Assembly: GCF_003691585.1 (NCBI RefSeq)
Contig: NZ_CP033169.1
Span: 2,170,001 to 2,234,000 of the forward strand
Direction of reading: 5' to 3'
Length of the DNA: 64,000 bases
Source of the DNA: Biomaibacter acetigenes
Lineage (GTDB): Bacteria; Bacillota; Thermosediminibacteria; Thermosediminibacterales; Tepidanaerobacteraceae
This document shows positions 40,279 through 58,009 of this stretch, piece after piece. Positions within the stretch are counted from its first letter, which is position 1, and each line of letters starts with the position of its first letter. Under the pieces are notes generated by a model. That model searched no databases and was not told the DNA's origin. It saw only the letters and a list, made by a program, of their open reading frames with translations. The position numbers and the translations under genes are program-made.

Positions 40279-40335
40279 CTTCCATCTCTCCTTATAAATA
40301 ATAATGCTTGTTTTTTAAACTGTAAAGATAAAACC

Positions 40336-41106
40336 TTACAATCTTTTCAGGACATTGTAGTATTCTTCAAAGTAGCGCTGATTTCTCCTCCCGGCATCGG
40401 GAGTATTTACGCTGACAATTACCGGGGGCTCTATACCTTTTTCGATTAATTTTTCAACGGTGCGGCAGACCATGGTATTTACTATATATGATATGACTAC
40501 CGTGGTTATGGGGCCCACTTTCACATCCAGCCCCTCCAGCTCTACTACCGCATCACCTACCGGCATCTTGCAATCTATCATAACGTCAGGTTCCAGATCG
40601 CACAGATTTTTACCGGAGGGATGCCGTGCCGGGTGATTTTCCGGAATAGCCCTGGCATTGACCGGAGATGTGACGGCGATGATTTTTGTACCGCGTTTTT
40701 TGCATTCAAGGGCTGTTTCAATGGTTGCAGCGTTAATGCCATAGGCGTTTATCAATATAAGCAAATCATCTTTTTTCACCTTATAGTAATCTAAAAGGGC
40801 TGTCGCTATTCCCGGTACCCTCTCCAGGAGCATGGATCTTAAAGCTCCCTGATCCATGGAAAACTCCAGAATGGCGTTTATGGGAACCAGTCCCCCCGCC
40901 CTAAAGAACAAATCTTCAACCCCTATCCTGGAATGAGCTCCGGGACCAATGGCGTGTATGACTTTGTTTTGGGCGATCTGCTCCGTCATAAGGTCTGCCG
41001 CCTTTTCTATGTTCTGCCTCTCCTCGGTGTATATCTTACTAATATATTCCGTAACCCGGCTATAATATTTATCTACGGCGCTGGCCTTCTTTTCCACCTT
41101 TGCCAC
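40336..41106 (-). CDS. SIS domain phosphosugar-binding protein, copy 1
   Basis: A 256-residue SIS-domain protein, clearly paralogous to its downstream neighbour. Shared motifs are HAIGPGAHSRIGVEDLFFRAGGL near residue 52, INAYGINAATIETALECKKRGTKIIAVTS near residue 115 and HPARHPSGKNLCDL near residue 158. The catalytic role is unknown; candidates are an isomerase or a MurQ-like etherase on a phosphorylated amino sugar. The GTG start at 41106 directly abuts GAGGAGGA. The GTG three codons further in is better spaced and may be the true start. Cotranscribed with two amidohydrolase genes upstream. Confidence 0.85.
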   Translation of the reverse strand: MAKVEKKASAVDKYYSRVTEYISKIYTEERQNIEKAADLMTEQIAQNKVIHAIGPGAHSRIGVEDLFFRAGGLVPINAILEFSMDQGALRSMLLERVPGIATALLDYYKVKKDDLLILINAYGINAATIETALECKKRGTKIIAVTSPVNARAIPENHPARHPSGKNLCDLEPDVMIDCKMPVGDAVVELEGLDVKVGPITTVVISYIVNTMVCRTVEKLIEKGIEPPVIVSVNTPDAGRRNQRYFEEYYNVLKRL

Positions 41107-41144
41107 TCCTCCTCAGTAAAAATTGATTTTCTTATAAATCTATT

Positions 41145-41954
41145 TTATATTAAAGAATCCAGAATCTTTTTCATGTTGAGTCCTAAAATCTTAGCTTTAT
41201 CTTCTTCCGAAATTTCCGCATAACCTACCCGGCCCACGGCGGGCCTCGAATCTAAAAAAGGGGCATCGGTACCAAACAAAACCCTGTCTGCTCCCACTTC
41301 CCTTACCATGAGCTCCACAATACCCTCATAATGAAAAGAACCTGTGAGGTCAAGGTAAACATTATTACATTCACTGGCGACTTTAATAGCTTCATATATG
41401 GCTTTCGGCACCCCTCCTGAATGCCCCAGTATAAAAGTAACGCTGTCATATTGTTTGGCGAGTTTTCCAAAAACCTTAACATTATCTATGCCCCAAACAT
41501 GGGAAAGCAAGAGCCCTCTTCGTTCCTGTAAAATTTCATAAACCCTGTGGTATTCCATACCATCCGGGGGATAATCATGAGTTTCCGGATGGATCTTTAT
41601 CGCCGACATCCTGCCTCTTTCCCAGTGTTTTTCTATCTCTGATTCTATTAACTCGGGATAATTGGGATTTACGCCAATATAGCCGAAAAATCTGTCGGGA
41701 TATTGTTTTACCACTTTATGGACCCATTCGTTGCCGTATAAAAAATCAGGTCCGATGGACAGCAATGCGGAAATGCACATCTTATCGATACCCAGGATAT
41801 CCATACTTTTAATTAAAGATTTTTCATCATATTCGGGAATATGAAAGTTAAACCACTGGCCAAGATGAGCATGACAGTCAATAATTGTGAATTTTTTAAG
41901 AGGTTCCCCTCTTGATAATGTTTCTCTAATTTCATGAAACCCCTTATCAATCAT
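41145..41954 (-). CDS. Amidohydrolase-2 family metal-dependent hydrolase (intact active site)
   Basis: A 269-residue TIM-barrel hydrolase of the amidohydrolase_2 family. All expected ligands are present: HAH (His28, His30) in IIDCHAHLG, Lys120 in AIKIHPETHDYP, His152 in LLSHVWG, His178 in ILGHSGG and Asp230 in FGTDAPFLDSR. The family includes sugar lactonases and decarboxylases, so it may open a sugar lactone. Its ATG overlaps the upstream degenerate paralogue by 8 bases, and the ribosome site GGGGGG sits within that gene. The two are translationally coupled and may form a complex. Confidence 0.87.
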   Translation of the reverse strand: MIDKGFHEIRETLSRGEPLKKFTIIDCHAHLGQWFNFHIPEYDEKSLIKSMDILGIDKMCISALLSIGPDFLYGNEWVHKVVKQYPDRFFGYIGVNPNYPELIESEIEKHWERGRMSAIKIHPETHDYPPDGMEYHRVYEILQERRGLLLSHVWGIDNVKVFGKLAKQYDSVTFILGHSGGVPKAIYEAIKVASECNNVYLDLTGSFHYEGIVELMVREVGADRVLFGTDAPFLDSRPAVGRVGYAEISEEDKAKILGLNMKKILDSLI

Positions 41955-42705
41955 AGATTACACCCCCCAGCAGGTGCCTTAGATTGTCTCCGGCGATTTT
42001 CTTTTTATCCTCATCCGGTAGTAATAAATGTGTAATCATGGTTACCGCAGACCCGGCGCTGTAGACCGGGAGCCCGCTGCCGAAAATAAGCCTGCTGGTC
42101 CCAAATCTGGCGCACAGGGCCTCTATCCCGAAATGGACTTTATAGCTTGAAGTCTCAATATATATGTTCTGGAAGGAATCCAGCAGGGGGTAAAGATAAC
42201 GGTCGGCCCTATAACCCGTATTCGTAAGGATAAGGGGGATATCTTTATATTCCGATGTTATACTGGAAACTGCATCATAGTCAATTTGATCCATTCCGAA
42301 CATCAGAGGAACCTTATGTTCATTTAGCACCGCAAGTAAAGCCCTGCTTCTCTGTGTAAAAAGGCCGTAATTTTGTGCGCTTTTTGCTGGAAAGGCCCGA
42401 ACCATTTTTACATTGTTGGCCTTGAGAAGTTCAATAAGATTATACGGGTCGTAAAATTCGCCAGTATCGTTTGGCATCACCACCCATACGGGATATAGAT
42501 TACTGTAATCTTTTATAGTCTCCATCAACACCTCATTTCCCTTTTTGGGATGGTACTCTTCAGCCAGGCTGTGGTAGACCATGGCTTCCCGGATTCGGCA
42601 GATTTCCATACGTCTTAAAAGGGATTTTATATCGGTAAAAGAACCTTTTAAAAGAACATTCCTCATTCCAATGGAACAATTGGAGTCGAAAAATTGCAAT
42701 GGCAA
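41947..42705 (-). CDS. Amidohydrolase-like protein lacking metal ligands (probable pseudoenzyme)
   Basis: A 252-residue protein with the layout of an amidohydrolase_2 barrel, but every metal motif is changed. The H-x-H motif is DSNCSIG (residues 7-13), the L-x-H-x-G motif is LTNTGY (160-165) and the G-T-D-x-P-F motif is FGSGLPVY (208-215). The frame is intact at full length, so it is kept by selection. It directly precedes an intact paralogue with which it overlaps. A structural or regulatory partner role, or metal-free chemistry, is suggested. The start is TTG 42705, six bases after GAGGTG. Confidence 0.8.
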   Translation of the reverse strand: MPLQFFDSNCSIGMRNVLLKGSFTDIKSLLRRMEICRIREAMVYHSLAEEYHPKKGNEVLMETIKDYSNLYPVWVVMPNDTGEFYDPYNLIELLKANNVKMVRAFPAKSAQNYGLFTQRSRALLAVLNEHKVPLMFGMDQIDYDAVSSITSEYKDIPLILTNTGYRADRYLYPLLDSFQNIYIETSSYKVHFGIEALCARFGTSRLIFGSGLPVYSAGSAVTMITHLLLPDEDKKKIAGDNLRHLLGGVIYD

Positions 42706-42726
42706 TTAAGTCACCTCTTTTAAAAT

Positions 42727-43051
42727 TCAAAAGATGGCAGCAAAAAACACGTATTCCAGTGGTTCTTGCCCGGTATTTTTTATGGTATGTTCGGTGCCAA
42801 GAGGTATATACTGCCTGACCGCCGCAAACATCGTATTCCTCATTCCCAAGCCTTATCTTCCCTATTCCCTTTATTATCCAGTAAGTCTGCTCTTCATTGT
42901 CGTGTACATGAGGTGGAACACTCTCTCCTGGCTTTACGCTGACGTGGCTCATAACAATTTTATCCAGTTTAAATAAGTGCTTATAATCTGCAAAATCATA
43001 CCCGTTTACAGAAACCTTTGTCAAATCCTTTATATATTCAGTCTCTGTCAA
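42727..43051 (-). pseudogene. Cupin protein with a frameshift near its middle
   Basis: A small cupin (about 107 residues) begins at ATG 43051 and reads well as far as WIIKGIGKIRLGNEEYD. The second cupin half, IPLGTEHTIKNTGQEPLEYVFFAAIF, is in another frame and ends in TGA at 42727. The two join at about 42804-42812 around a TATATA tract, where a 2-base loss or 1-base gain explains the shift. Without correction the frame runs on into the next gene. It lies between the sodium symporter and the amidohydrolase pair. It is either a recent pseudogene, a programmed slip or a sequencing error. The intact form would be a sugar-binding or isomerising cupin. Confidence 0.75.
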
Positions 43052-43119
43052 TTTAAAGGCCTCCTTTAAAATTAATTAAAATGCATGAGGCCTTATACAG
43101 GCCCCATGACATCAGACTA

Positions 43120-44580
43120 TTAATTTCTTTCCAGTATCTCGAAAATTTCATCCACTTCAGCTTGTTTTTCAGGCGGCATTTTGGAAATATAGCCTTCGGC
43201 TATAAAAACGATAGCTGTGATGAGTAGTGAACCGCCGGTAATTAGATTCCACGAGCCGTGCATGGGATATTTAAATATGAAGAAAGACACCACGCCGCAC
43301 AGCCATGACAGAAGTGCGCCTTTCCATGTGGTTCTCTTAAATATTAACCCGAAGAGCATCGGTATGGCCACAGGGCCCATTAATCCTGCAAACCATGTCA
43401 TCATAGCCTTAAAGGCTCCTCCCATCGCCGGTGTTAGAAGTCCGGCAATAACCGATAAAGCACAGAACACAGCCGTTGTTATCCTGCCGACATTTAAGAG
43501 CTTTTCAGGGGTTGCGTTGGGATCAAAAACCCGCTGGTATATGTCTTTTGTAAACACCGCTGAAACACTGTTTGAATCGGAATCCACCATTGACATAGTC
43601 GCTGCAAACATGGCTGCCAGCATAAAGCCCATTGCGCCGGGCAATACTGGAGCCAGGAACTTGTTTGCCATAAGTACATATGCATGTTCCGGATTGTCAA
43701 TTGCAGGTATAAATATGGGTGCCGCCCACATTGGTATAAACATAAACAACGGATATACCAGGTAAAGGGCAGCGGAAAGATATGCGGCCTTCATTCCTTC
43801 CCTGGGTCCCTGGAGAGAAATAAATCGTTGAGCCAGACCCCACGTTCCGCCGTTATAACTCAAAATAACTACAACAAGATATATAAGCACATAGAGAGGT
43901 GTATAGTCTCCACCAAAAGCTGCAAGGCGTCCCGGAGGCAATTGCTGCCATAGTCCTCCCCATCCGCCCACTTTCGACAGAACAATAAAAGCCAGAGGAA
44001 TTGTTATTACGAGCTGAACGATGAATTGCGCGAAATCCGTCAATACATCAGCCCAGATTCCGCCTATAGTCGTATATAACAGCGCCACTATTCCACTAAA
44101 AATAATGCTCCATTGCAGAGGAATGCCCGCCATAACTGAAACAAATACGCCTATTGAATAAAGTTTCAGGCCCTCATCGATAAATTTCAATGAAATTCCA
44201 CTCCATGCTAAAGCCTGCCTCACAGTATTGTTGAACCGTGGCTCCATAATTTCCAGCGGTGTAACAACCTTTTTGTAAAGTCCAAGATTGGTCCAGCGCG
44301 GTGCAAACACAAGAGCTCCCAAAACCATTGCTATTGCAATAGTCACCGCCCACAGGGTATAAATCGGAAAACCTATTTTGTATGCAACACTGGCATAGGC
44401 TATAAAAGCAAAGGCGCTGTATCCCGACATATGGTGGGAAATCGCCGCCAGCCACCACGGCATTCTGTGACCGGCGGTAAAATAGTCTTCAATGCCTTTA
44501 ATCAGGTTCTTCACATATAAACCAATAATGATCATCGCTACAAAAAACAGCACTAAAACTGAGTAGTCTATAAAACCCAT
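43120..44580 (-). CDS. Sodium:solute symporter (SSS family)
   Basis: A 486-residue permease with about 13 hydrophobic helices. SSS landmarks include YFTAGHRMPWWLAAISHHMSGYSAFAFIAYASVAY near residue 33, TTIGGIWADVLTDFAQFIVQL near residue 170 and MLAAMFAATMSMVDSDSNSVSAVFTKDIY near residue 320, whose Ser residues form the sodium site. It is the first gene of the LacI-regulated operon and should bring in the starting substrate unphosphorylated. ATG 44580 follows GGGGGG. The closest characterised relatives carry sugars, sialic acid or carboxylates; I cannot narrow it further. Confidence 0.92.
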   Translation of the reverse strand: MGFIDYSVLVLFFVAMIIIGLYVKNLIKGIEDYFTAGHRMPWWLAAISHHMSGYSAFAFIAYASVAYKIGFPIYTLWAVTIAIAMVLGALVFAPRWTNLGLYKKVVTPLEIMEPRFNNTVRQALAWSGISLKFIDEGLKLYSIGVFVSVMAGIPLQWSIIFSGIVALLYTTIGGIWADVLTDFAQFIVQLVITIPLAFIVLSKVGGWGGLWQQLPPGRLAAFGGDYTPLYVLIYLVVVILSYNGGTWGLAQRFISLQGPREGMKAAYLSAALYLVYPLFMFIPMWAAPIFIPAIDNPEHAYVLMANKFLAPVLPGAMGFMLAAMFAATMSMVDSDSNSVSAVFTKDIYQRVFDPNATPEKLLNVGRITTAVFCALSVIAGLLTPAMGGAFKAMMTWFAGLMGPVAIPMLFGLIFKRTTWKGALLSWLCGVVSFFIFKYPMHGSWNLITGGSLLITAIVFIAEGYISKMPPEKQAEVDEIFEILERN

Positions 44581-46065: not shown

Positions 46066-47637
46066 TCAAACGGAAGCCTGCAGCAACTTCAGGTGTTTGC
46101 CGATATGCTCCTCCAATGCTTTGTAGTATTCTTCCTCATGTTCATTCAACGTGCTGTAAATATCATCTTTGAGGAGGTACTTCCCATCCTCATTTTTTGC
46201 CGTTAAAATCAATCCATATGTTATATGGAGTACCTGGCGGGCATCGTCCTGAATGAGCACATGAGACAAGTCTTCATCGCTCATGGTGCTTATATCCGGC
46301 ACATTTGCAAGGTTTGTGGTGACATGATAATATCTGGTAGCCTCATGAAAATGCTCCAGAGCAAAGATATATATCTTTCTGAAGAGGTCGGGCTTTTTAT
46401 GGGCGATTACCTTTAATGCCTCCAGCCAATTGGTGCCGGCGGTCTTTACGTGAACCCGTCCTTTTGTGTATTTGCCTATAATGGGAAATACCTTGAATTT
46501 GTCGCTGCCGGAGTGAATGCTCAAACGATAGCCAAAGAGGTCTGCAATGGCTGCATGGACCTTGAATTCCCTCTCGAACTGTTCAATGTCTCCAATGTAA
46601 TCTATAGCCTTCTGAAACTCGCCGCAGAACCGTGGAGCAAGGCTGGTCACATCGACCCCCTTTTTTTTAAGCTCCGAAGCCACAAAGAAATGGGCCTGGG
46701 GTGTTGTAGGCGTCATGGTTTCATCGATGGAAACCTCAAAGTCCACTTTTCTTCCTGCGGGTTTTATAATATCATGGTAGATATGGTTTATAAAATCCAG
46801 GGCTTTGCCGTATATTAAAACAATCCTTTTTAAATTTCCTCCATCAAATGCGATCTTGATATCTCCCGATATAACATCCTTCACGTAAAACTCACTGTCA
46901 AGGTAATCTTGCTCGATTCTTTTTATATAATCCGGTTCAAGGCTATTATATCCCTTTTCAACATCTTCATCAGACATGGCCGGCACATCATTGTTTATCA
47001 TTTCCGAACAGTCGAGGGTTATCATGGAAAATCCGAGGTCCAGGGCCATTTTTACTTCATCCTCGGTCTTTAGATGGTCCCCATCGGCTCCGAAGCCCAG
47101 CCGGTAACCTTCCTGAAACACGGCCCAGGATGCGGCATCCAGCACATCTTCATAAGTCCTTTCTGTAAGATTCAGCTCCCGGATAGACTGCTGGGCCAGC
47201 ACCGGCCTTATCTTTGTCTTTTTTATAAGACGCAGATGCCCCGGTGAAGCAAGGCCCAATCTATCCCCCAACCCCATGCTCATGCAACCTTTACCGAAGG
47301 CCACCGGTGATGTAAAGGGAAACCATTTCCGTGAAGCTTTGGCATTGTGATGGCTCAAAGGTAAAAGTTTTACCATTTTCTCTTCGATAGATTCAGTTTC
47401 CCCCTGGAAATCTTCAGTAAGTTTTTTAACTTCATCGGTAAGGTCATCTACAATTATTACCATTTTCTTTTCCCCGGCATCTTTTGTCATGAAAAAGATG
47501 CAACCCTTTAATAAATTTATGGATTCCGGATAGACCCCATAGGCATGAAAATATTTGGAAGCTTCCCTTCTGGCAGCTTCAATGTTCATTTCCCCGGAAA
47601 TCACTTTTTTACAAAATGCCTTCCAACCTTCCTGCAA
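46066..47637 (-). CDS. uxaE: Tagaturonate epimerase
   Basis: A 523-residue protein of the UxaE (tagaturonate epimerase) family, known from Thermotoga maritima, which interconverts D-tagaturonate and D-fructuronate. Long conserved blocks are recognisable: FTSPVAFGKGCMSMGLGDRLGLASPGH near residue 107, QEGYRLGFGADGDHLK near residue 175, VSIDETMTPTTPQAHFFVA near residue 300, and IHSGSDKFKVFP near residue 378. The family lies outside the well-known sugar isomerases. Starts at TTG 47637 after GGGGGA. Last gene of a uxaB-uxaA-uxaE unit, so it probably links the galacturonate and glucuronate branches. Confidence 0.87.
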   Translation of the reverse strand: MQEGWKAFCKKVISGEMNIEAARREASKYFHAYGVYPESINLLKGCIFFMTKDAGEKKMVIIVDDLTDEVKKLTEDFQGETESIEEKMVKLLPLSHHNAKASRKWFPFTSPVAFGKGCMSMGLGDRLGLASPGHLRLIKKTKIRPVLAQQSIRELNLTERTYEDVLDAASWAVFQEGYRLGFGADGDHLKTEDEVKMALDLGFSMITLDCSEMINNDVPAMSDEDVEKGYNSLEPDYIKRIEQDYLDSEFYVKDVISGDIKIAFDGGNLKRIVLIYGKALDFINHIYHDIIKPAGRKVDFEVSIDETMTPTTPQAHFFVASELKKKGVDVTSLAPRFCGEFQKAIDYIGDIEQFEREFKVHAAIADLFGYRLSIHSGSDKFKVFPIIGKYTKGRVHVKTAGTNWLEALKVIAHKKPDLFRKIYIFALEHFHEATRYYHVTTNLANVPDISTMSDEDLSHVLIQDDARQVLHITYGLILTAKNEDGKYLLKDDIYSTLNEHEEEYYKALEEHIGKHLKLLQASV

Positions 47638-47657
47638 ACTAATTCCCCCTCTTACAT

Positions 47658-49145
47658 TTACAAGGTTACCCCGTTTTTAAATATGGCTATTTCTCTAAAG
47701 CCCATGTTTTCTGACTTTGTGGCCATACCGGAAGCCACTTTTAAAACGCTATCCATGAGCTCATCAGTAAGTTTTTCCATGGACTCTCCGTTCAGCAACC
47801 TTCCAGCATCAAAATCCATCCAGTTGGATTTCCTCTTGAAAATATCGCTGTTGGTGGCGATTTTTACTGTTGGAACCGCAGTCCCCAGCGGAGTCCCTCT
47901 GCCGGTGGTAAAAAGGATAATCTGGCATCCCGATGCCGCCAGCGCAGTAGAAGCTACCATGTCGTTGCCTGGTGCGCTCAAAAGGTTTAATCCCTTTTGT
48001 TTTATGGTTTCGGCATATTCCAGCACATCCACCACATTGCTGGTGCCGCCCTTCTGGGTGCATCCCAGGGATTTTTCCTCCAGGGTAGTAATGCCGCCTT
48101 TTTTATTGCCCGGAGAAGGATTTTCATATATGGGCTGGTTATATCCCATGAAATATTCTTTAAAGTCATTGATGAGCTTTACTGTCTTTTCAAAGATTTC
48201 CTGATTTTTGGCCCTATTCATGAGGATGGTCTCGGCTCCGAACATCTCAGGCACTTCCGTCAAAACGGTGCTCCCGCCACAGGATATAAGCTTATCAGAA
48301 AAGCTCCCCACCAGAGGATTGGCGGTAATGCCTGAAAAGCCGTCGGACCCTCCGCATTTTAATCCCACGGTAAGTTCCGATACGGGTACCTCTTCTCTTT
48401 TAAATTGTGAAGCATATTCCACCAGTTCTTTGATAAGCTTTAAACCTTCCTGTATCTCATCTTCAACTTCCTGAGCGACTAAAAATCTCACTCGCTGGGG
48501 ATCATATTCCCCAAGTACTTTTTTAAACTCCGCAATGTTGTTGTTCTCACAACCCAGGCCCAGTACCAGTACTCCTCCGGCATTAGGGTGGTTCACCAGA
48601 TCCGCCAGGATCTTCTGGGTATTTAATTGGTCTTGACCCAGCTGCGAGCAGCCGTAGGGATGTGTAAACTCATATATGCCGTCGATATTCTTGGCGCTTG
48701 CAAGTTCTTCCATGGCTTGTCTTGCTATGAGCTGGGCAGCCCTATTGACACAGCTCACGGTGGGGATTATCCAGATTTCGTTTCTTACTCCCACCCTACC
48801 GTCTTTTCTGCGATAACCCTGAAATGTCTTATCACATTTTACCGGCTCATGCTGTTTTAACTCCGGATGGTATTCATAATCAAGGATCTCACCTAGATTT
48901 GTCTTTATGTTATGGGAGTGAACCCATTGTCCGGCCTTTATGTCGGATATGGCATGGCCTATGGGAAAACCGTACTTTATGACATTTTCCCCCTTTTTTA
49001 TGTCTTTTATGGCTATCTTGTGCCCTTTATCTATATCCTCAATGGCTGTGATGCTGGAAGCTTCTACTTTTAGGACTTCCCCTTTTTTTATATCATCGAT
49101 GGCCACCGCCACATTGTCCCTTTCATGAATCTTTAATAGCGGCAT
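47658..49145 (-). CDS. uxaA: Altronate dehydratase
   Basis: A 495-residue UxaA/GarD-family dehydratase. Residues 1-75 are a SAF-like domain (HERDNVAVAIDDIKKGE, FPIGHAISDIKAGQWVH). The catalytic part has GYRRKDGRVGVRNEIWIIPTV near residue 105, HPYGCSQLG near residue 155, LGLGCENN, and LKCGGSDGFSGITANP near residue 275. It converts D-altronate to 2-keto-3-deoxygluconate and needs iron or manganese. ATG 49145 follows GAGGAGGG. The upstream in-frame extension has no start signal and runs across a repeat. It is transcribed after uxaB, with a 95-base gap holding an inverted repeat. Confidence 0.92.
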   Translation of the reverse strand: MPLLKIHERDNVAVAIDDIKKGEVLKVEASSITAIEDIDKGHKIAIKDIKKGENVIKYGFPIGHAISDIKAGQWVHSHNIKTNLGEILDYEYHPELKQHEPVKCDKTFQGYRRKDGRVGVRNEIWIIPTVSCVNRAAQLIARQAMEELASAKNIDGIYEFTHPYGCSQLGQDQLNTQKILADLVNHPNAGGVLVLGLGCENNNIAEFKKVLGEYDPQRVRFLVAQEVEDEIQEGLKLIKELVEYASQFKREEVPVSELTVGLKCGGSDGFSGITANPLVGSFSDKLISCGGSTVLTEVPEMFGAETILMNRAKNQEIFEKTVKLINDFKEYFMGYNQPIYENPSPGNKKGGITTLEEKSLGCTQKGGTSNVVDVLEYAETIKQKGLNLLSAPGNDMVASTALAASGCQIILFTTGRGTPLGTAVPTVKIATNSDIFKRKSNWMDFDAGRLLNGESMEKLTDELMDSVLKVASGMATKSENMGFREIAIFKNGVTL

Positions 49146-49170
49146 AAAATCCCTCCTCTTAAGGAAAGTT

Positions 49171-49218
49171 GGGGACGGTTCTTGACTTGAATCAGAATGT
49201 TCCGAAGAACCGTCTCCC
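49171..49218. repeat. REP-like inverted repeat between uxaB and uxaA
   Basis: GGGGACGGTTCTT and AAGAACCGTCTCCC form a 13-bp imperfect stem (one bulged base) around a 21-base loop. The GGGACGGTTCTT arm resembles short dispersed palindromic elements found in many Clostridia genomes. No second full copy was seen in the window. Confidence 0.65.
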
Positions 49219-49240
49219 GGTACGGTTATTAGTGCGGTTG

Positions 49241-50761
49241 TTAGATAAGTTTTTCTACCGTCGCTTTTATACCGTCTTTTGTAATCTGATATAGATAATC
49301 CCCTACTTTTTCCGCCAGGCCTTCTACGTTGTTTAAATCTTCGCCCCACATGGCAGTATTGGCTAGAACCCTTTCAGCCACTTTGGCGGCGGATTCTTTG
49401 CTGCCGTCAAATGATTCCCATACATTTTCAAAAAACTCCAGAGCCGGGAGGTCATCCTTCATGGTGAATTCGCCCTTTTCCCTCATGGTCTTCATGGCGC
49501 TGCCCTCCACATGGCCGTCTTTATATACTGCAATCAAAGCAGCCATGGAGAAGGTGAGCTTTTCCGGGAGTTTACCATTGAGCTTTTTATATTCAAGTAT
49601 AGAAGGCAAAACCCTTGTCTTGAACTTAGAAGATGAATTCAGGAGAATGCTTATAAGGTAATGCTTTATATATGGGTTCTGGAAGCGCTCTACCACTGAA
49701 TCGGCAAATTCTGTAAGCATTCCCTTATCAAGGTCTATAGACGGGATTATTTCATCATATATGATTTGCCTTGTATATTTGCCCATGACTTCATGGTCCA
49801 TCATCTCGCCTACTGTCTCAAGACCATACAGGAATGCGGCCGGCACCGAAGAGGTATGGGCGCCGTTTAAAATACGCACTTTCCTGGTCCGGTAAGGCGT
49901 CATGTCATCGGTCCATATAACATTAAGGCCCACTTTTGTAAAGGGCAACCTTTCGGAAAGTTCCTTTGGTCCCTCAATTACCCACAGGTGGAACAATTCT
50001 CCTGTATCAACCAGCTCATCCTCATAGCCCAGTTTTGCCAGGATGTCTTTTATTTCATCCCTGGGATACCCGGTAACAACTCTATCAACAAGAGTATTTA
50101 AAAAGATGTTGTGTTCCTTTACCCATTTCTTAAATTCTTCCGGAAGGTTCCAGTCGTCAGAAAGCTGGAGGACAATCCTCTTCAGGTTATCGCCATTCCT
50201 GTCGATAAGCTCGCAGGGAATTATTACCATGCCCCTGGCAGCATCTCCGTTGAAATGCCGGAACCTGTGGTAAAGGTATGCCGTGAGCTTGCCCGGATAG
50301 GACACCGGTGGCTTGTTTTCCAGGCTATCGTTTTTTTCATAGGCGATACCGGCCTCGGTAGTATTGGAAATTACAAATTCTATATGTGGATCTTCGGCAC
50401 ATTTAAGGTATGCATCCCAGTCCTTATACGGATTGATTCCTCTGCTTACTGAGCTGATTATCTCCTTAAGCTCTGTGGGCTTACCATCCTTTAAACCCCT
50501 CAAAATCAAGGTGTAGAGGCCATCCTGCTCATTTATCCTGGGAACCAAACCTTCGGCTATGGGCTGAACAACTACAATGCGCCCGTTGAACAATTTATTT
50601 TTGTTCATCTGATGGAACATCCAGTCCACAAATGCCCTCAAAAAATTGCCTTCGCCGAACTGGATCACCCTTTCCGGCAGGTTTTCGGGAAACTCCTGTA
50701 CCTGTAAATCTTCCGGAAACTTGAAGCCACTTTTTAATAATTCTTTATTAAGTGTTGCCAT
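49241..50761 (-). CDS. uxaB: Tagaturonate reductase
   Basis: A 506-residue member of the polyol-specific long-chain dehydrogenase family (mannitol dehydrogenase type). It has VIQFGEGNFLRAFVDWMFHQMN near residue 32 (NAD-binding), SNTTEAGIAY near residue 133, and the catalytic block KVRILNGAHTSSVPAAFLYG near residue 300 with the Lys, Asn and His residues. UxaB reduces D-tagaturonate to D-altronate with NADH. ATG 50761 was chosen for its spacing from AGGAGGGG. A ROK-type operator and a near-consensus -10 lie just upstream, so it starts its own transcript. Confidence 0.92.
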   Translation of the reverse strand: MATLNKELLKSGFKFPEDLQVQEFPENLPERVIQFGEGNFLRAFVDWMFHQMNKNKLFNGRIVVVQPIAEGLVPRINEQDGLYTLILRGLKDGKPTELKEIISSVSRGINPYKDWDAYLKCAEDPHIEFVISNTTEAGIAYEKNDSLENKPPVSYPGKLTAYLYHRFRHFNGDAARGMVIIPCELIDRNGDNLKRIVLQLSDDWNLPEEFKKWVKEHNIFLNTLVDRVVTGYPRDEIKDILAKLGYEDELVDTGELFHLWVIEGPKELSERLPFTKVGLNVIWTDDMTPYRTRKVRILNGAHTSSVPAAFLYGLETVGEMMDHEVMGKYTRQIIYDEIIPSIDLDKGMLTEFADSVVERFQNPYIKHYLISILLNSSSKFKTRVLPSILEYKKLNGKLPEKLTFSMAALIAVYKDGHVEGSAMKTMREKGEFTMKDDLPALEFFENVWESFDGSKESAAKVAERVLANTAMWGEDLNNVEGLAEKVGDYLYQITKDGIKATVEKLI

Positions 50762-50785
50762 AACCAATCCCCTCCTGAATATTTT

Positions 50786-50806
50786 TTAACTTAATTAATT
50801 ATTATT
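50786..50806 (-). promoter_or_regulatory. Putative ROK operator A, upstream of uxaB
   Basis: TTAACTTAATTAATTATTA (50786-50804) differs at one base from the site before aroE. On the minus strand it overlaps an AATAAT -10-like element (50801-50806). It lies in the 58-base gap between the IolB-like gene and uxaB. Confidence 0.65.
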
Positions 50807-50818
50807 CTAAAGCAATAG

Positions 50819-51622
50819 TTATTTCTTCATTGCCTTTACCAGCTTTTGATCATCTTTAGGTGTGAGTTTTCTTCCATGAGGTCCCGCCATTACCCAGAGA
50901 TAGTAAACCGCAAATCCCGGAGCTGATGCCACTGGATGGTAACCTTCGGGAATTGCCACCGCATCTTTGTCTTTTATGATGTATGCATCCCTAAGAGACA
51001 GGTCATCATTATACATAACCTGTACCCCAAAGCCTTCCGGGGGATTCACTTTAAAGAAATAAATTTCTTCCATCATGGTTTCCTCAGGGGGATTATAGGC
51101 GTCATGTTTGTGAGATGGGTAACTGGACCATTCCCCTGGATATGAGAAAGTTTCACCCACTACTATCCTATCTACTCGTCCTTCACCATTATCAACGATT
51201 ATATCGTGCACATCCCTTTGATAGCCTGGAACCCCCCGGTGATTTACCACTACGTCTTCAGGTTTTACCACAAAGGGCTTAAATTTCTTTTCAGCTACAG
51301 CAGAAAGCACGGCAATTTCCAATTTGTCGCCCTGGGCCTCAATAACCTCATAAAAACTTTCCCGGGGAATATAAACCGCAGTAGCCCTGCCTGAGAATAC
51401 ATCTTTCCTTTCCCCTAGATTTTCATATTTTACATCGTCAACTTTTAAATTGGCCTTTCCTGATAAAATCACCAGGACAACTTCCTTATCGTAAGTCTTT
51501 GTTTTATAACTTTCGCCGGCCTCAAGGGTTAATATGCCAAGGCCGATATATTTCGTGACATCTCCTGGTTTTATTACTTCTCTTAAACCCTTCTGATCTT
51601 TAAAAGTATAAAGGTAACTCAA
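50819..51622 (-). CDS. IolB/KduI family isomerase (candidate uronate isomerase)
   Basis: A 267-residue double-cupin protein of the IolB/KduI family. The conserved metal site is visible as SYPSHKHD near residue 180, EEIYFFKVNPPEGFGVQVMYND near residue 195 and the final GYHPVASAPGFAVYYLWVMAG. IolB isomerises 5-deoxy-glucuronate and KduI isomerises 5-keto-4-deoxyuronate; no other inositol gene is here. The context (uxaB, uxaA, uxaE, uronate-type TRAP) and the absence of uxaC suggest that it may isomerise galacturonate or glucuronate. The start is TTG 51622, eight bases after GGAGG. Confidence 0.85.
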   Translation of the reverse strand: MSYLYTFKDQKGLREVIKPGDVTKYIGLGILTLEAGESYKTKTYDKEVVLVILSGKANLKVDDVKYENLGERKDVFSGRATAVYIPRESFYEVIEAQGDKLEIAVLSAVAEKKFKPFVVKPEDVVVNHRGVPGYQRDVHDIIVDNGEGRVDRIVVGETFSYPGEWSSYPSHKHDAYNPPEETMMEEIYFFKVNPPEGFGVQVMYNDDLSLRDAYIIKDKDAVAIPEGYHPVASAPGFAVYYLWVMAGPHGRKLTPKDDQKLVKAMKK

Positions 51623-51670
51623 TTTGAATGCCTCCAATTTAAATAGTTTCCATCTCAACATATTGAGCAA

Positions 51671-52756
51671 TTACCTTACCAGTATATCGTGCCTTTTAAA
51701 GCAAAGCCCTTCAAATTCCACTTCCACCATCGGAAAATTCTCGGAGCCAGTCAGGATTACCGGCCCATCATTTTTCACCAGAATTGTGTCTTCGGATTTT
51801 ACACCAGCGATGGTGGGATTCCATGCATAGACCTGGCCTTCTTCTACTATTTCCTCACTACAAGTTGTAGCCCTGAATTCCCGGGAGTTATACCCAGCCA
51901 TACCGCCCTGATGGTGGTTCTTCCACTCATCGGAAAATCCTACAGATTCATAAGCCTTTTTGCCCTTCTCGAAAATGTCTTTTACTCTGACTCCTGGCAC
52001 TGTAGCTCTTATAAAGGCTGTATCGATTTTTAGCACGGCCTCATGCCTCTTTTTTAAATCCTCTGGCACCTTGCCGAAATGCACCAGCCGGGTGGCCGAT
52101 GCCACAAGGCCATGTTTTTCTCCGGAAATGGCCATGAGCACATACTTTTCTATTTTCTTTTCGGTGGGAATGGGATGGCGGTAGTAAAATGCCCTGTCAT
52201 CAGCCGCCACCAGATTAACCTGCGGATTTACTCCATAGGAAACCGAAATTTTTTTAATACATCCAGCTACGTCCAGCTCGCTGTCTCCCGGTTTTATCTT
52301 TAAAGCTACCTCTTCCAGTATTTTTGCCACACATTTCCCGGTATCTTTAAACCTTTGATGCTCTTCCGGCAACAGGTCCCACCTGAGCACATTAAATTTC
52401 AAGCCAAGGTCAACATCCAGAACAACTTTTTTTCCCCCTGCCAGTTCCTTTAATTTTTCATCCATTGCCCCGGGTTCCCACCAGGGGTATTCTACTTTTT
52501 TCAGAGACAATCCACTCAATTCTTCATTTATCAATCTTGCCGCTTCAATGTTGCTGGAAACAAGAAAGACCTCTTCTGATGTCACAAGTAAAGCTCCGCA
52601 GGATTTTTCAGACATCATATTGACGTATGGTCTTCCTCCGGTGAGCCACAGGAAGTTTACCTGGGTGGTAATCAAGAGATCTTCGATGCCTTCCTTTTGC
52701 ATCAAACTGCGAATCCTTCCAAGTTTTAACTCATATTCGTGCTTCGACCAGACCAA
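51671..52756 (-). CDS. Creatinase/Xaa-Pro peptidase-fold (M24) protein with altered metal site
   Basis: A 361-residue M24-fold protein with an N-terminal creatinase-N domain (to about residue 130) and a C-terminal pita-bread domain. The metal ligands of true aminopeptidases are mostly lost. The D-x-G and D-x-T-R motifs read MAIS (208-211) and SATR (220-223), and the E-P motif reads NP (313-314). The His pair at 281-282 and the late Glu322 remain. Like creatinase, it may therefore be a metal-free hydrolase rather than a peptidase. It is transcribed within the TRAP-uronate cluster, 27 bases after dctM. Starts at TTG 52756 after AAGGTGA. Confidence 0.82.
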   Translation of the reverse strand: MVWSKHEYELKLGRIRSLMQKEGIEDLLITTQVNFLWLTGGRPYVNMMSEKSCGALLVTSEEVFLVSSNIEAARLINEELSGLSLKKVEYPWWEPGAMDEKLKELAGGKKVVLDVDLGLKFNVLRWDLLPEEHQRFKDTGKCVAKILEEVALKIKPGDSELDVAGCIKKISVSYGVNPQVNLVAADDRAFYYRHPIPTEKKIEKYVLMAISGEKHGLVASATRLVHFGKVPEDLKKRHEAVLKIDTAFIRATVPGVRVKDIFEKGKKAYESVGFSDEWKNHHQGGMAGYNSREFRATTCSEEIVEEGQVYAWNPTIAGVKSEDTILVKNDGPVILTGSENFPMVEVEFEGLCFKRHDILVR

Positions 52757-52783: not shown

Positions 52784-54076
52784 TTATTTCCCCATTAAAA
52801 GATCAGGCATGAACATCACTATTTGAGGTACATAGGTTATAAACAACAAAACAATAATCATAGTAAGGTAAAAGGGTATCATGGACCTGGACAGCTTTTC
52901 TATGGATATATTTCCTATGGCACATCCCACGAATAAGGTGCTACCGACCGGAGGAGTTAAAAGACCTATAGCAAGGTTTAACATCATTATTATCCCAAAG
53001 TGAACCGGGTCCACACCGAGTTGTAAAGCCACCGGCAAGAGTATAGGCGTAGTGATCAAAATTAGCGGAGCCATATCCATGATGCAGCCCAGGAAAAGCA
53101 ACAAAATATTTATTACAAATAAAACCACATACTTATTCGAGGAAATCGATAGCAAAGCTTTTGTAGCCAGCGCCGGCACTTTTAGATATGCCAGCAGCCA
53201 TCCGAAGGCATTGGAAGTGGCAATTAACGCCATAACGATAGCGAGGGTCTTTAAACTCTTCATAAGTATCAAACTCATTTTTGATAATGGTATATCCCTG
53301 TATATAAAAAAGGTAACAATAAAGGCATATACCGCCGCTACCGCCGCCGCTTCAGTGGCCGTGTAAAATCCGGTTATTACACCGCCTACAACTATAACAG
53401 CAGTGAGAAGCCCCAATGCCGCATCCTTTGTGGCGATCAGTGCAGTCTTTAAAGATGCCGGTTCACCGGCGGGATAACCTCTTCTCACGGCTATGATATA
53501 AGAAAGCAGCATAAGTGCAAGCCCCAGCACAATCCCCGGTATCATTCCCGCTAAAAACAGCCTTCCTACTGAAACCCCGCCTGCCACCAGTGAATATATT
53601 ATCATATTGTGGCTGGGTGGTATTAATATTCCCTGGGTTGAACCTGTTATAGTGACAGCTACCGAATAATCATCATCATAACCTTTTTTCTTCATCATGG
53701 GGATCAGAATGGACCCTATGGAAGAGGTATCGGCTACCGAAGAACCCGAAATTCCGCCGAAAAACATGCTTGCCAGAACATTTACAAGGGCCAGGCCACC
53801 TCTGATTCTTCCGACTATTACATTGGAAAAAGTGATCAAGCGTTGAGAAATACCGCCTTCCCCCATGATTTCTCCTGCTAGAATAAAAAACGGAATTGCC
53901 AGCAATGAGAAGGAATTAATACCTCTAACCATTGCCTGGGCCATCATGGCAAGCGGCACATGAAGATAGGCAGCGGTAATAACAGAAGATATGCCCAATG
54001 AAAAGGCTATTGGTACTCTTAATATTATCAGGCATGCAAAGCTACCCAATAAAAGAGTAATGGCTGTTGTATTCAC
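52784..54076 (-). CDS. dctM: TRAP transporter large permease DctM
   Basis: A 430-residue permease with about 12 hydrophobic helices. DctM landmarks are PFFILAGEIMGEGGISQRLI near residue 62, GSSVADTSSIGSILIPMMKKKGYDDDYSVAVT near residue 115, LIPPSHNMIIYS near residue 152 and LTPPVGSTLFVGCAI near residue 362. It forms the transport core of a three-part uronate-type TRAP system. Its GTG start overlaps the dctQ stop (GTGA), giving translational coupling. Confidence 0.93.
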   Translation of the reverse strand: MNTTAITLLLGSFACLIILRVPIAFSLGISSVITAAYLHVPLAMMAQAMVRGINSFSLLAIPFFILAGEIMGEGGISQRLITFSNVIVGRIRGGLALVNVLASMFFGGISGSSVADTSSIGSILIPMMKKKGYDDDYSVAVTITGSTQGILIPPSHNMIIYSLVAGGVSVGRLFLAGMIPGIVLGLALMLLSYIIAVRRGYPAGEPASLKTALIATKDAALGLLTAVIVVGGVITGFYTATEAAAVAAVYAFIVTFFIYRDIPLSKMSLILMKSLKTLAIVMALIATSNAFGWLLAYLKVPALATKALLSISSNKYVVLFVINILLLFLGCIMDMAPLILITTPILLPVALQLGVDPVHFGIIMMLNLAIGLLTPPVGSTLFVGCAIGNISIEKLSRSMIPFYLTMIIVLLFITYVPQIVMFMPDLLMGK

Positions 54077-54552
54077 TTATTTCCCTCCCCTGTTCTTTTA
54101 ATCTCTTTGATGGATGCCTGAATAATATAGTAGATCATTGCAATTCCTGCCAGAGGTACTGCGGCATATAAAAAAGCAGAATTTAATTTAATGCCGGGCA
54201 TATAATTGCCCGTAGCCACCTTGCTCATTTTAATGCCTTCGGTAATCATAAATATGGCAAAACCAATGATCAGGATCCTGCTTATCCAGTTTAGAAAGTT
54301 TTTTGTCTTATCAGACAAAAATTGATCCAATATGGTTATTCTCAAGTGAAGGTCGTCTCTTACCCCCAATGCCATACTCAAAAATCCAAACCACACCATG
54401 CAAAGCAGAGCTCCTTCTTCCCCCCATGCCGGAGTTTTATGAAGAAAGTAACGGGAAAAGACCACCCATGAAACTATCAAAGTCATAAGTACAAGCAAAC
54501 TCATACTGAAAACCTCGATAAAACTGTTGAAATATCTTTCTAATTTTTTCAA
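54073..54552 (-). CDS. dctQ: TRAP transporter small permease DctQ
   Basis: A 159-residue protein with four hydrophobic helices and the conserved VFSRYFLHKTPAWGEEGALLCMVWFGFLSMALGVRD block near residue 31, typical of DctQ. It pairs with DctM in the membrane. Starts at TTG 54552 after GGGAGGG. A strong stem-loop lies between it and the binding-protein gene upstream. Confidence 0.92.
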   Translation of the reverse strand: MKKLERYFNSFIEVFSMSLLVLMTLIVSWVVFSRYFLHKTPAWGEEGALLCMVWFGFLSMALGVRDDLHLRITILDQFLSDKTKNFLNWISRILIIGFAIFMITEGIKMSKVATGNYMPGIKLNSAFLYAAVPLAGIAMIYYIIQASIKEIKRTGEGNK

Positions 54553-54621: not shown

Positions 54622-55683
54622 TTATTTTGCTGCCTTTATCTTTTCTATAAGGTCCTTGTAATCTGCACCGAACTTGTCATACAATGGTTTTACTGCATCC
54701 TGCCAGGGTTTTAAATCCTTCACTTCTGTAATCACATTGCCTTTGGCTTTAACAGCTTCAATGGACTTCTTTTCATATTCCTGCCAGGCTTTTTTCTGAG
54801 TTTCTTCCGAAGCTCTCGCAGCTTCTTTGATTATCTTTTTATCTTCATCGCTCAATTTATCCCAAAGGGCTTTTGACGCTATTACAACTTCGGGGGTCAT
54901 CGTATGATAATCCAGAGTATAATATTTTGCCACTTCATAGTGTGATGTGGAATAATAGCTGGGCCAGTTATTTTCCGCCCCGTCTATAACGCCTGTCTGA
55001 AGGCCGCTGTAAACCTCGCCATATGCCATCGGCGTAGGAGACGCACCCAGAGCTTCTACAAGTCCCACCATTAGCTCTGACTGCTGGACCCTTATCTTTA
55101 GACCTTTTAGATCTGCCGGAGTTTTGACCTCATGTTTACTGTTATAGAAACTTCTAGCTCCGGAATCATAGTAAGCAAGGCCTATCATACTGGCATCCTT
55201 GAGAGTATCGAGTATTTCATCCCCAATAGGTCCATCCAGAACTTTCCACAAGTGTTCTCTGTTATCGAAAAGGTATGGAAGCGAAAGAACACGCAGGGGT
55301 TTTGCGAAATCTGATAACGGCTGGGCATTTACTCTTGCAAAATCAATACCACCCATCTGGACCGCCTCAATTACACTCTTCTCATCGCCAAGCTGTCCGC
55401 CCGCATACACTTCTATCTTTATCCGCCCATTGGTCTTTTCCTCGACAATTTTGGCGAACTCTTTATCGCCAATAGTGGTAGGATAGTCTTCAGGTTGGTT
55501 TTCAGCTAGTTTTAAAACCATTTGTTCCTGAGGTTTACTTTCTTGCTGAGATTGCTGTTGACTGGACTGTTGCTGATTGCTGGATTGAGTGTTTCCTGCT
55601 TGCTGTCCGCAGCCAACCAGTGCAAATAACAATAATACTACACATGTCAGCAAAACTACTTTTTTTGAACGAAAGAACGACAC
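54622..55683 (-). CDS. dctP: DctP-type TRAP solute-binding lipoprotein
   Basis: A 353-residue binding protein with a signal peptide ending in the lipobox ALVGC (about residue 25). A long Gln/Ser-rich tether follows to about residue 53, then the DctP fold. The carboxylate-clamping Arg sits in GLKIRVQQSE near residue 197, and the DGAENNWPSYYS block is near residue 237. GTG 55683 is preceded by GGGAGGAG. Linkage to uxaA/B/E points to a uronic acid as ligand. An operator-like AT palindrome overlaps its -10 element. Confidence 0.92.
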   Translation of the reverse strand: MSFFRSKKVVLLTCVVLLLFALVGCGQQAGNTQSSNQQQSSQQQSQQESKPQEQMVLKLAENQPEDYPTTIGDKEFAKIVEEKTNGRIKIEVYAGGQLGDEKSVIEAVQMGGIDFARVNAQPLSDFAKPLRVLSLPYLFDNREHLWKVLDGPIGDEILDTLKDASMIGLAYYDSGARSFYNSKHEVKTPADLKGLKIRVQQSELMVGLVEALGASPTPMAYGEVYSGLQTGVIDGAENNWPSYYSTSHYEVAKYYTLDYHTMTPEVVIASKALWDKLSDEDKKIIKEAARASEETQKKAWQEYEKKSIEAVKAKGNVITEVKDLKPWQDAVKPLYDKFGADYKDLIEKIKAAK

Positions 55684-55711
55684 AAAAACTCCTCCCTGGA
55701 TTTTAAATTTT

Positions 55712-55733
55712 TTAATTTAATTAATTAATTATA
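55712..55733 (-). promoter_or_regulatory. Putative ROK operator B, upstream of dctP
   Basis: TTAATTTAATTAATTAATTA (from 55712) shares the TTAANTTAATTAATTA core with sites A and C. It overlaps a perfect TATAAT -10 on the minus strand (55728-55733). The -35 is weak. Confidence 0.65.
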
Positions 55734-55798: not shown

Positions 55799-57076
55799 TT
55801 AGATGAAATCTTCCCTTGCTTCCTGTTTATCTAATATTGGCTGAACATCGTCTAAAATATTAGAATTTGGTTTTAGCAATTCCCTCAATGCCAGGGCGCA
55901 GGCTCCTATCACCCCGGAGTTTCCGTCAAGGGCCGAAAGTTTTATATCTGTAGAGCCCGCTATTTCAGGAAAAGCATGTGAATCAACTGTCTGTTTCAAA
56001 ATGTCTATAAATGCTGCTGCGGCTGCCGCCATCTTGCCACCAATGAAGACCACTCCGGGGTTATAAAGGTTTATCACATCTGCCACCGCAAGGCCTATAT
56101 ATTTCCCCATTTGTTTGATTAACTCATTGGAATAGGTTCCTTCTATGGAAGCCGATTTTAATATGTCATTTATAGAAATTTTCCCCTTAATTTTCCATAT
56201 CTCCTTGAGGGGGTCCTCTTCCTTTATTAACGGCATTTCAGAATTGGCTTTCCTGACCAGTGCAGGGATTCCGCATATGCTTTCAAGACACCCCCGATTA
56301 CCGCAGTTGCACAGGGGGCCGCCTTCTACAATGACAATGTGGCCGATCTCACCGGCATGACCCTGAAACCCCTGTAGTATCCGGTCGTCCATGATGATAC
56401 CGGCGCTGATACCTTCTCCAAGATTTATATAAACAAGGTCTTTGTATTCGGTCCCTCCTCCGAACCACCTTTCTGCCAGGGCAGATGCATTGGAATTGTT
56501 TTCTATATAGACCGGAAGGCCGATTTCTTTTTCGATGGCACTTTTTACAGGGAATCCATTCCATTTTGGTCCAAGATTTATGGAGCGTTTAACTATACCT
56601 TCTTTAATATTTAAGAGCCCCGGAAAAGCAACTCCCAGCCCTAAAAAATTTTTATCGCGATAATTTTCATTATGATTTATAATCTGTTTTATAGTATCTA
56701 CTAACTGAGGAATGCCGGTTTCAGGTTCTGTCATGTCCAGTTCAAAAGTCTGGATATCTGTAGGGTCGTTTTTTAAATCCGCTATACCCAGTGTAGTCTC
56801 ATGCCTGGTTACTTCTATCCCTATAACAAAGCCCGCTTCCGGGTTAAATTGCAACTGTACAGGCCTTCTGCCGCCACAGGATTTCTCCAATCCCACCTCT
56901 TTCACGAAACCCATATCTATTAGTTCTCTTATTATTTGAGTTATTGCCGGTGGTGTCAAACCAGTTATCTTTGCCAATTGCTGGCGGGAGATAGGTTCGC
57001 GTTCTTTTATTATATTCAAAACAGTCATCCGATTTAGTTTTTTAACGTACTTACTATTCCCGGGTCTTTTCTGCAT
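55799..57076 (-). CDS. ROK family transcriptional repressor (XylR/NagC-like)
   Basis: A 425-residue ROK repressor. The N-terminal winged helix contains RMTVLNIIKEREPISRQQLAKITGLTPPAITQIIRELIDMG. A sugar-kinase-like fold follows, with GLGVAFPGLLN near residue 145, HAGEIGHIVI near residue 240 and the zinc-binding GPLCNCGNRGCLES near residue 255. ATG 57076 is preceded by GGTGA and overlaps the 3' end of aroE by 23 bases. Three TTAATTAA-type sites in this region are its likely operators, and a uronate or its derivative the likely inducer. Confidence 0.9.
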   Translation of the reverse strand: MQKRPGNSKYVKKLNRMTVLNIIKEREPISRQQLAKITGLTPPAITQIIRELIDMGFVKEVGLEKSCGGRRPVQLQFNPEAGFVIGIEVTRHETTLGIADLKNDPTDIQTFELDMTEPETGIPQLVDTIKQIINHNENYRDKNFLGLGVAFPGLLNIKEGIVKRSINLGPKWNGFPVKSAIEKEIGLPVYIENNSNASALAERWFGGGTEYKDLVYINLGEGISAGIIMDDRILQGFQGHAGEIGHIVIVEGGPLCNCGNRGCLESICGIPALVRKANSEMPLIKEEDPLKEIWKIKGKISINDILKSASIEGTYSNELIKQMGKYIGLAVADVINLYNPGVVFIGGKMAAAAAAFIDILKQTVDSHAFPEIAGSTDIKLSALDGNSGVIGACALALRELLKPNSNILDDVQPILDKQEAREDFI

Positions 57077-57962
57077 CCTGTTCACCTTTTCTTGCAAAAT
57101 ATGTCAATACGGCTTTTTCCATGACTTCAATGGGCGGTCTTTTACCTGTCCATAGTTCGAAAGCTCTTGCTCCCTGATAAATCAGCATATATAACCCGCT
57201 TACTACTTTGTAGCCGAGTCTTTTTGCTTCTTTTAAAAATAATGTTTCCATGGGTGTATATACCGCATCGAAAAATACCGCATCTTTTTTAATACTATCC
57301 CAGGGTATATCCAAAGCAAGATTTCCCTGTCCCTTCATACCAATGCTTGTGGTGTTGACAATAATATCTGAATGTGGAAGAATACTCCGCCACGCATCTT
57401 TGTCCCACGGTATTATTTTACCTGCATTCTGATTGCAGCGGCATGATGATCTATTCAAAAATTCCATTAGTGACTTTGCTTTTTCAAATGTTCGATTGGT
57501 TAATGTCACCGACGATGCTCCGGACAAAACGGATTGTCCGGCTATGGCATGGGCAGCTCCACCAGCCCCGATGATAAAAACATTTTTATCTTTTAAACAA
57601 ATCCCCGCCTGTTCCTGTAATGCCATTTCAAATCCGTATCCATCAGTGTTGTATCCTATCAGCTTTCCGTTCCTATTAAAAATAGTATTTACTGCACCTA
57701 TCATTTCGGCTTCGGGAGAAAGTTCATCAAGAAAAGGAATCACGCAGGTCTTATGGGGAATGGTGACATTGATACCCGCAAGGCCAAGAGCCCTGATACC
57801 CTTTACGGCTTCTTCTAAATCATCTTTTTCGACCTGAAAAGCCATATAAATGTAATTTAAGGCAAGAGCATCAAAAGCCGCATTATGCATCACCGGTGAA
57901 AGTGAATGGCTTATCGGGTTGCCGATTACTCCTACCAGTCGGGTTTCAGCATCGATCTTCAA
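57054..57962 (-). CDS. aroE: Shikimate dehydrogenase
   Basis: A 302-residue AroE. The substrate site SHSLSPVMHNAAF is near residue 18, catalytic Lys in NVTIPHK near residue 70, Asp in YNTDGYGF near residue 106, the NADP motif GAGGAAHAI near residue 132, and the NADP-preferring TNRT near residue 155. It reduces 3-dehydroshikimate to shikimate. It is the first gene of an operon with the ROK repressor and lies under the same kind of operator, away from other aro genes. It may therefore serve catabolism of shikimate-like acids or have a shifted substrate. TTG 57962 follows GGAGG. Confidence 0.9.
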   Translation of the reverse strand: MKIDAETRLVGVIGNPISHSLSPVMHNAAFDALALNYIYMAFQVEKDDLEEAVKGIRALGLAGINVTIPHKTCVIPFLDELSPEAEMIGAVNTIFNRNGKLIGYNTDGYGFEMALQEQAGICLKDKNVFIIGAGGAAHAIAGQSVLSGASSVTLTNRTFEKAKSLMEFLNRSSCRCNQNAGKIIPWDKDAWRSILPHSDIIVNTTSIGMKGQGNLALDIPWDSIKKDAVFFDAVYTPMETLFLKEAKRLGYKVVSGLYMLIYQGARAFELWTGKRPPIEVMEKAVLTYFARKGEQDAEKTRE

Positions 57963-57988
57963 TATAATGCCTCCAAAATATAACTTTT

Positions 57989-58009
57989 TTAAGTTAATTA
58001 ATTATTATA
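57989..58009 (-). promoter_or_regulatory. Putative ROK operator C, upstream of aroE-rok
   Basis: TTAAGTTAATTAATTATTA (57989-58007) overlaps a TATAAT -10 on the minus strand (58004-58009). It is almost identical to site A and would let the ROK protein control its own operon. Confidence 0.65.

Follow-up and report, generated by a model that had tools for sequence, protein, structure and literature searches.

Within the complete 3.398-Mb genome of Biomaibacter acetigenes, a stretch of 64,000 nucleotides (positions 2,170,001-2,234,000; hereafter the window) harbors a uxa operon in which a double cupin of the KduI/IolB family is encoded next to UxaB, UxaA, and UxaE. Judged from its sequence and its genomic company, this cupin is probably a hexuronate isomerase that acts as a non-orthologous replacement of UxaC. 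The initial annotation had proposed that the protein converts a uronate to the ketouronate; this is considered likely in view of the recurrent adjacency of such genes to uxaB in several families of anaerobes, the lack of UxaC in 12 of 12 genomes with this arrangement, a clade of its own with characteristic substitutions, and a hexuronate-type transporter in the same operon.

Linkage of IolB and UxaB across genomes

The survey comprised 398 genomes of the phylum, 56 of them with UxaB, which divide into 26 with and 30 without a UxaC recognized by Pfam. IolB is encoded directly beside UxaB in 12 of the 398 genomes, spread over five families, and UxaC is missing from all 12, compared with 18 of the 44 other UxaB-positive genomes (Fisher nominal p 0.0002, not corrected for relatedness). 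Since related genomes are not independent, the five families plus a plasmid represent the safer count; at least six families show the adjacency. On a plasmid of Priestia megaterium, an ATP-binding cassette (ABC) transporter, aldehyde and iron-alcohol dehydrogenases, IolB, UxaA, and UxaB are encoded in a row, with no M24 gene beside IolB. Regardless of position, IolB (A2 profile, at least 250 bits) was detected in 14 of the 30 UxaC-lacking and in 2 of the 26 UxaC-positive UxaB genomes (p 0.002). A true iolD occurs in none of the UxaC-lacking IolB genomes, so that no supply of 5-deoxyglucuronate is seen there; the true iolD genes of the tested set reside in UxaC-positive genomes (9/9). The order M24-IolB-UxaB-UxaA(-UxaE), in which M24 denotes a protein of the creatinase/prolidase fold, is shared by the window genome and eight relatives from two families, with IolB identities of about 62-82%.

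A plasmid-borne 'iolB' of Lachnospira eligens (L121:12004-15001; 53% identical to the window protein) is accompanied by a YhcH/YiaL-type gene and an SLC13 permease and by no inositol genes, so that this pectin user contributes a further such candidate. LarA-type (Lar_N) proteins are encoded beside an IolB relative in G387 and beside UxaE in G045 (L132:1-1814; L034:6755-9635).

Family, clade, and active-site residues of the cupin

The cupin aligns with positions 18-259 of the 262 of Pfam KduI (PF04962) at 272.5 bits (gathering score 23.9) and thus belongs to this family, of which it is the sole member in the complete genome; a second KduI/IolB gene is absent. Its score with the NCBIfam iolB equivalog (TIGR04378) is 237 bits, above the cut-off of 205, and automatic annotation will therefore name it 5-deoxy-glucuronate isomerase. 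The metal ligands of the HxH, E, H pattern (H187, H189, E202, and H245) are conserved in both the uxa and the iol group; E202 is presumably a ligand, as we assign it from known KduI structures.

A tree of 32 proteins, including 14 uxa-linked and 9 iol-cluster IolBs, unites all 14 of the former in one group, and eight of the nine latter are split off by a 100/99 branch. The ninth, a long-branched protein from G037, was placed away from the other eight and was set aside as a member of an iol-like cluster. At five positions that are invariant in the eight iol-cluster IolBs, the uxa group has a different, likewise fixed residue (R133F, N156D, V172G, V174T, and N259W). The cupin thus shares with IolB (TIGR04378; PDB 2qjv) the double-cupin KduI/IolB fold, the HxH...E...H metal site and, as proposed here, the aldose-ketose isomerization of a uronate, but it differs from the IolBs of true iol clusters in identity (33-37%), in clade, in these five residues, and in context, being encoded with uxaB and uxaA in a genome without iolD. 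It is likewise not grouped with the KduI-type proteins of relatives, which reach about 110 bits with PF04962 versus 272 for the cupin and are only about 25-27% identical to it, nor is it an amidohydrolase-fold sequence of the UxaC type (PF02614). The cupin is thus a member of the KduI/IolB family, though not IolB sensu stricto, and probably works like UxaC. A scan of genome contigs with the single protein recovered only two close relatives, and AlphaFold models from three-sequence alignments (pLDDT, the predicted local distance difference test, of 43 and 59) were too poor for use.

Other occupants of the position beside UxaBA

The slot next to UxaBA is filled by UxaC, a BH0493-type protein, an inositol set, or IolB. 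That alternative suppliers of ketouronate take this slot is the strongest argument for IolB performing the isomerase step. Proteins of 414-418 residues of the BH0493 type are encoded in the uxa loci of G086, G124, G258, and G109, at the following positions:

L142:14073-15320: BH0493-type isomerase gene in a uxa locus
L140:4673-5929: BH0493-type isomerase gene in a uxa locus
L149:8251-9501: BH0493-type isomerase gene in a uxa locus
L141:6336-7580: BH0493-type isomerase gene in a uxa locus

All four are negative for PF02614, and the tested copy matches no other Pfam family. The G124 copy matches the characterized BH0493 uronate isomerase (PDB 2q08) with an E value of 7e-173. This type escapes PF02614 and will therefore be overlooked by pathway predictors; for the same reason, PF02614 alone was rejected as a test for a missing isomerase. 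In G019, a zinc-dependent dehydrogenase, a creatininase-like protein, a Gfo/Idh protein, and an AP_endonuc_2 protein beside UxaBA constitute a Thermotoga-type inositol set; judging by size and partial matches, G022 is laid out likewise, and G207 and G323 resemble them. Judged by its family make-up rather than by direct comparison, this set probably corresponds to the IolG-IolM-IolN-IolO pathway of T. maritima (Rodionova 2013). The supplier assignment covers the UxaC-lacking UxaB genomes except eight (G027, G126, G159, G174, G183, G198, G292, and G401).

Because the slot has other suppliers, the lack of a Pfam UxaC alone proves little, and the argument from the missing UxaC is weaker than the initial annotation had stated: the BH0493 type escapes the Pfam model, and other routes can feed UxaB.

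Absence of UxaC and iolD from the genome

The genome-wide search for uxaC and iolD that the initial annotation had proposed recovered neither (PF02614; TIGR04377). No match to PF02614 exists in the complete genome, with control genomes behaving as expected, so that the claim of an absent UxaC was borne out. The best TIGR04377 match in the genome reaches 227 bits versus a cut-off of 715, and with iolD absent, an ordinary IolB would not be expected to find its substrate. The genome likewise lacks UxuA, and candidates for the 2-keto-3-deoxygluconate (KDG) aldolase and kinase lie side by side at about 0.422-0.424 Mb. No BH0493-type isomerase was found in the window or in the 1.29 of 3.40 Mb of the genome (38%) examined. 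The further claim that inositol genes are lacking is valid for this part of the window; elsewhere, the genome possesses a Thermotoga-type inositol cluster at about 1.088-1.095 Mb (L200:632-7467; ABC transporter, zinc-dependent alcohol dehydrogenase, creatininase-like, Gfo/Idh, and AP_endonuc_2 proteins). This cluster does not use the substrate of IolB and has no UxaB of its own, and the single UxaB may thus serve two routes.

Operon layout and the proposed pathway

Read on the minus strand from position 57997, the order is operator, aroE-like gene, ROK gene, second operator, dctP, dctQ, dctM, M24 gene, IolB-type cupin, uxaB, uxaA, and uxaE. The presence of uxaE, uxaA, uxaB, a uronate-type tripartite ATP-independent periplasmic (TRAP) transporter, and a KduI/IolB double cupin, all named in the initial annotation, is confirmed by Pfam, NCBIfam, and PDB matches. 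The features are as follows:

57980..57997, minus strand: predicted operator upstream of the aroE-like and ROK genes, 1 mismatch
57054..57962, minus strand: aroE-like gene between the upstream operator and the ROK gene (from the list of open reading frames (ORFs); kept in G001)
55799..57097, minus strand: ROK-family regulator of the operon (Pfam ROK and helix-turn-helix; kept with the operon in relatives)
55703..55720, minus strand: predicted operator TTAAATTAAAAAATTTAA upstream of dctP (pattern TTAANTTAAAWAANTTAA, 0 mismatches)
54622..55683, minus strand: TRAP solute-binding protein DctP, hexuronate type (PDB 4x8r, 313 bits; 4n8y, 305; 4mhf, 267)
54073..54552, minus strand: TRAP small permease DctQ (Pfam DctQ)
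52784..54076, minus strand: TRAP large permease DctM (Pfam DctM)
51671..52756, minus strand: M24 (creatinase/prolidase fold) protein without most metal ligands (Pfam M24, 63 bits; profile alignment to prolidase 1wy2; invariant positions)
50819..51670, minus strand: IolB-type double cupin, proposed hexuronate isomerase (Pfam KduI; NCBIfam iolB; PDB 2qjv, E 2e-43; uxa-linked clade); start probably near 51622, judged from homologues
49241..50767, minus strand: UxaB, tagaturonate reductase (NCBIfam NF002969, 683 bits versus a cut-off of 359)
47658..49349, minus strand: UxaA, altronate dehydratase (Pfam SAF, GD_AH_second, and GD_AH_C); start probably at about 49145
46066..47637, minus strand: UxaE, tagaturonate/fructuronate epimerase (Pfam UxaE, 681 bits)

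The solved structures closest to DctP are the solute-binding proteins of the hexuronate type listed above. The protein of 4MHF binds D-glucuronate and D-galacturonate, and two arginines and an asparagine bind the hexuronate (PMC7660916); in an alignment judged by eye, these residues appear to match the ARS, IRV, and ENN motifs of DctP. In G278 and G058, uxa-type IolBs are encoded with tripartite tricarboxylate transporters, again importers of acids.

From this gene content, we infer the following substrate, reaction, metal, and direction of flux. The TRAP transporter would import D-galacturonate and/or D-glucuronate, and the cupin, with a divalent metal on H187, H189, E202, and H245, would shift a proton between C2 and C1 and thereby convert the aldose to D-tagaturonate or D-fructuronate, the same chemistry as that of IolB on 5-deoxy-D-glucuronate. 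UxaE would then turn fructuronate into tagaturonate, UxaB would reduce tagaturonate to altronate, and UxaA would dehydrate altronate to KDG, from which the kinase and aldolase candidates could complete the route.

The branch via fructuronate was checked in ten genomes, a set that does not include G278, G341, and G400, in which UxuA is missing too. Relatives without UxuA have UxaE, as found by search (G000, G006, G010, and G021) or in the locus (G249 and G255), and those without UxaE (G004, G014, G016, and G017) have UxuA. As one of the two is present in all ten, fructuronate seems to be an intermediate, which fits an isomerase accepting glucuronate as well as galacturonate.

Relation to known uronate isomerases

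As described in the literature (PMC6353982), the isomerase pathway starts with UxaC, and UxaE connects its branches. The cupin shares with UxaC (PF02614) the proposed reaction and the position in the pathway, but UxaC is an amidohydrolase TIM barrel without sequence relation to it, and the two rarely share a genome in the sample. In uxaE-uxaB-uxaA operons from elsewhere in the phylum, the BH0493-type isomerase (PDB 2q08, 3hk5) takes the cupin's place, but it too has the amidohydrolase fold. Thermotoga maritima resembles the window operon in that UxaE joins the galacturonate and glucuronate branches (Rodionova 2012, as cited in PMC6353982), whereas this control genome has UxaC and no PF04962 protein. 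The precedent invoked in the initial annotation, E. coli KduI, belongs to the same Pfam family as the cupin, and the report in question exists: KduI is reported to have sped up the loss of hexuronates (PMC3578941). The observation was, however, made in cell extracts and not with purified enzyme, the product was not identified, the authors call the mode of action unclear, and the KduI subfamily is the distant one described above. Full-text searches of the open literature returned no paper that puts IolB forward as a uronate isomerase.

Should the assignment hold, the first step of bacterial galacturonate and glucuronate breakdown would be performed by a family unrelated to the amidohydrolase-fold uronate isomerases of the UxaC and BH0493 types. 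A set of genes annotated as 'iolB, 5-deoxy-glucuronate isomerase' would be misnamed, perhaps including the one in the pectin-using gut bacterium L. eligens, and metabolic models that deduce inositol use from iolB, or no uronate use from a missing uxaC, would mispredict these species. Whether the KduI/IolB fold handles ordinary hexuronates, the question left by the E. coli KduI report, would also be put to a clean test.

Alternative readings and the M24 neighbor

Several observations weigh against an isomerase role of the cupin. NCBIfam scores it as an iolB equivalog, and relatives of it are also present in two UxaC-positive genomes (G368 and G387). The conserved M24 partner has no assigned step in the proposed pathway, and a second IolB-M24 pair in G010 (L029:7935-15722), which lies without uxa genes among genes for Gfo/Idh, zinc-dependent alcohol dehydrogenase, a BPD_transp_2-type ABC transporter, and a GntR regulator, points to a possibly wider range of substrates for the pair. 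The Thermotoga-type inositol cluster could supply tagaturonate to the sole UxaB without any isomerase, and a BH0493-type enzyme, invisible to the Pfam UxaC model, is excluded only in the examined part of the genome and was not tested genome-wide in relatives.

It is nevertheless unlikely that a BH0493-type isomerase encoded elsewhere catalyzes the first step while the IolB-like protein does something else: the four PF02614-negative proteins in uxa loci provide a precedent, but none was found in the window, in the 1.29 Mb, or in any IolB-UxaB locus examined, and the conserved IolB-UxaB adjacency would be left unexplained. A main supply of tagaturonate to UxaB, UxaA, and UxaE by the Thermotoga-type route (IolG, IolM, IolN, and IolO), with IolB as a leftover or side enzyme, appears very improbable. 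The cluster is present in the genome, and such a set lies beside UxaBA in G019 and, in equal layout, in G022, but the operon of the window comes with a ROK operator of its own and encodes a TRAP of hexuronate type rather than a polyol transporter, there is no operator match with up to 2 mismatches upstream of the inositol cluster (a single 2-mismatch site is located at its end), and the conservation of IolB does not fit a leftover enzyme. An ordinary IolB acting on 5-deoxyglucuronate can be practically dismissed, since, despite the score above the NCBIfam cut-off, iolD is missing from the genome, the clade is separate, and five invariant positions are changed.

The M24 gene, which the initial annotation had omitted, sits between transporter and cupin and adjoins IolB in all nine operons of the M24-IolB-UxaB-UxaA order. 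In the taxonomic order concerned, an M24-fold protein stands beside IolB throughout (window; L025 to L030, L071 to L073). By profile alignment to prolidase 1wy2 and by its invariant positions, most metal ligands typical of the fold have disappeared from the M24 family, which is thus no normal peptidase. Together with the adjacency, also seen in the uxa-less G010 cluster, this would be compatible with a two-step unit, in which M24 first processes a uronate-derived amide, ester, lactone, or cyclic diketone before the product is isomerized by IolB, the operon serving a conjugated or unusual uronate. Such a division of labor is doubtful, given that IolB occurs with UxaBA without an adjacent M24 in G255, G278, and Priestia, that G004 and G400 combine a uxa-type IolB with UxaBA but yield no M24 match, and that M24 relatives (230-355 bits) are found in many unrelated sugar clusters, e.g. 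beside Thermus xylAB and in Pantoea. M24 is consequently not needed for the IolB-UxaBA link elsewhere, and for the same reasons it was rejected as a substitute for UxaC. Only speculatively, M24 and cupin might form a new two-enzyme entry to uronate catabolism, with a metal-free creatinase-fold enzyme opening or deconjugating an unusual uronate and an IolB-derived isomerase feeding the ketouronate to UxaB/UxaE.

Regulation and neighboring genes

With up to 1 mismatch, the pattern TTAANTTAAAWAANTTAA has two sites in the window versus 0.04 expected, and similar sites lie upstream of ROK or aroE in relatives. Genome-wide, it is not enriched over a reversed control pattern (5 vs 6), and none of the three other operator-like sites of the genome lies near sugar-acid isomerase genes. 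An extension of the regulon was rejected, as these other sites are no commoner than the control and are located near unrelated genes. The aroE-like gene has a 71% identical counterpart at the equivalent place in L025.

Two PF04909 amidohydrolases of the window (41145-42705) were rejected as isomerase candidates, being part of a separate neighboring SIS/SSS gene group and without a UxaC match. This adjoining group (39520-44580, minus strand) encodes two SIS-type proteins, the two amidohydrolases, a cupin, and a sodium-solute symporter (SSS) and lies downstream of a LacI gene. Its cupin ORF (42560-43051) overlaps an amidohydrolase ORF by 146 bases in another frame (42560-42705), a possible frameshift. 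Relatives of its SIS and SSS proteins are also found in the IolB-uxa cluster of G255 (L129).

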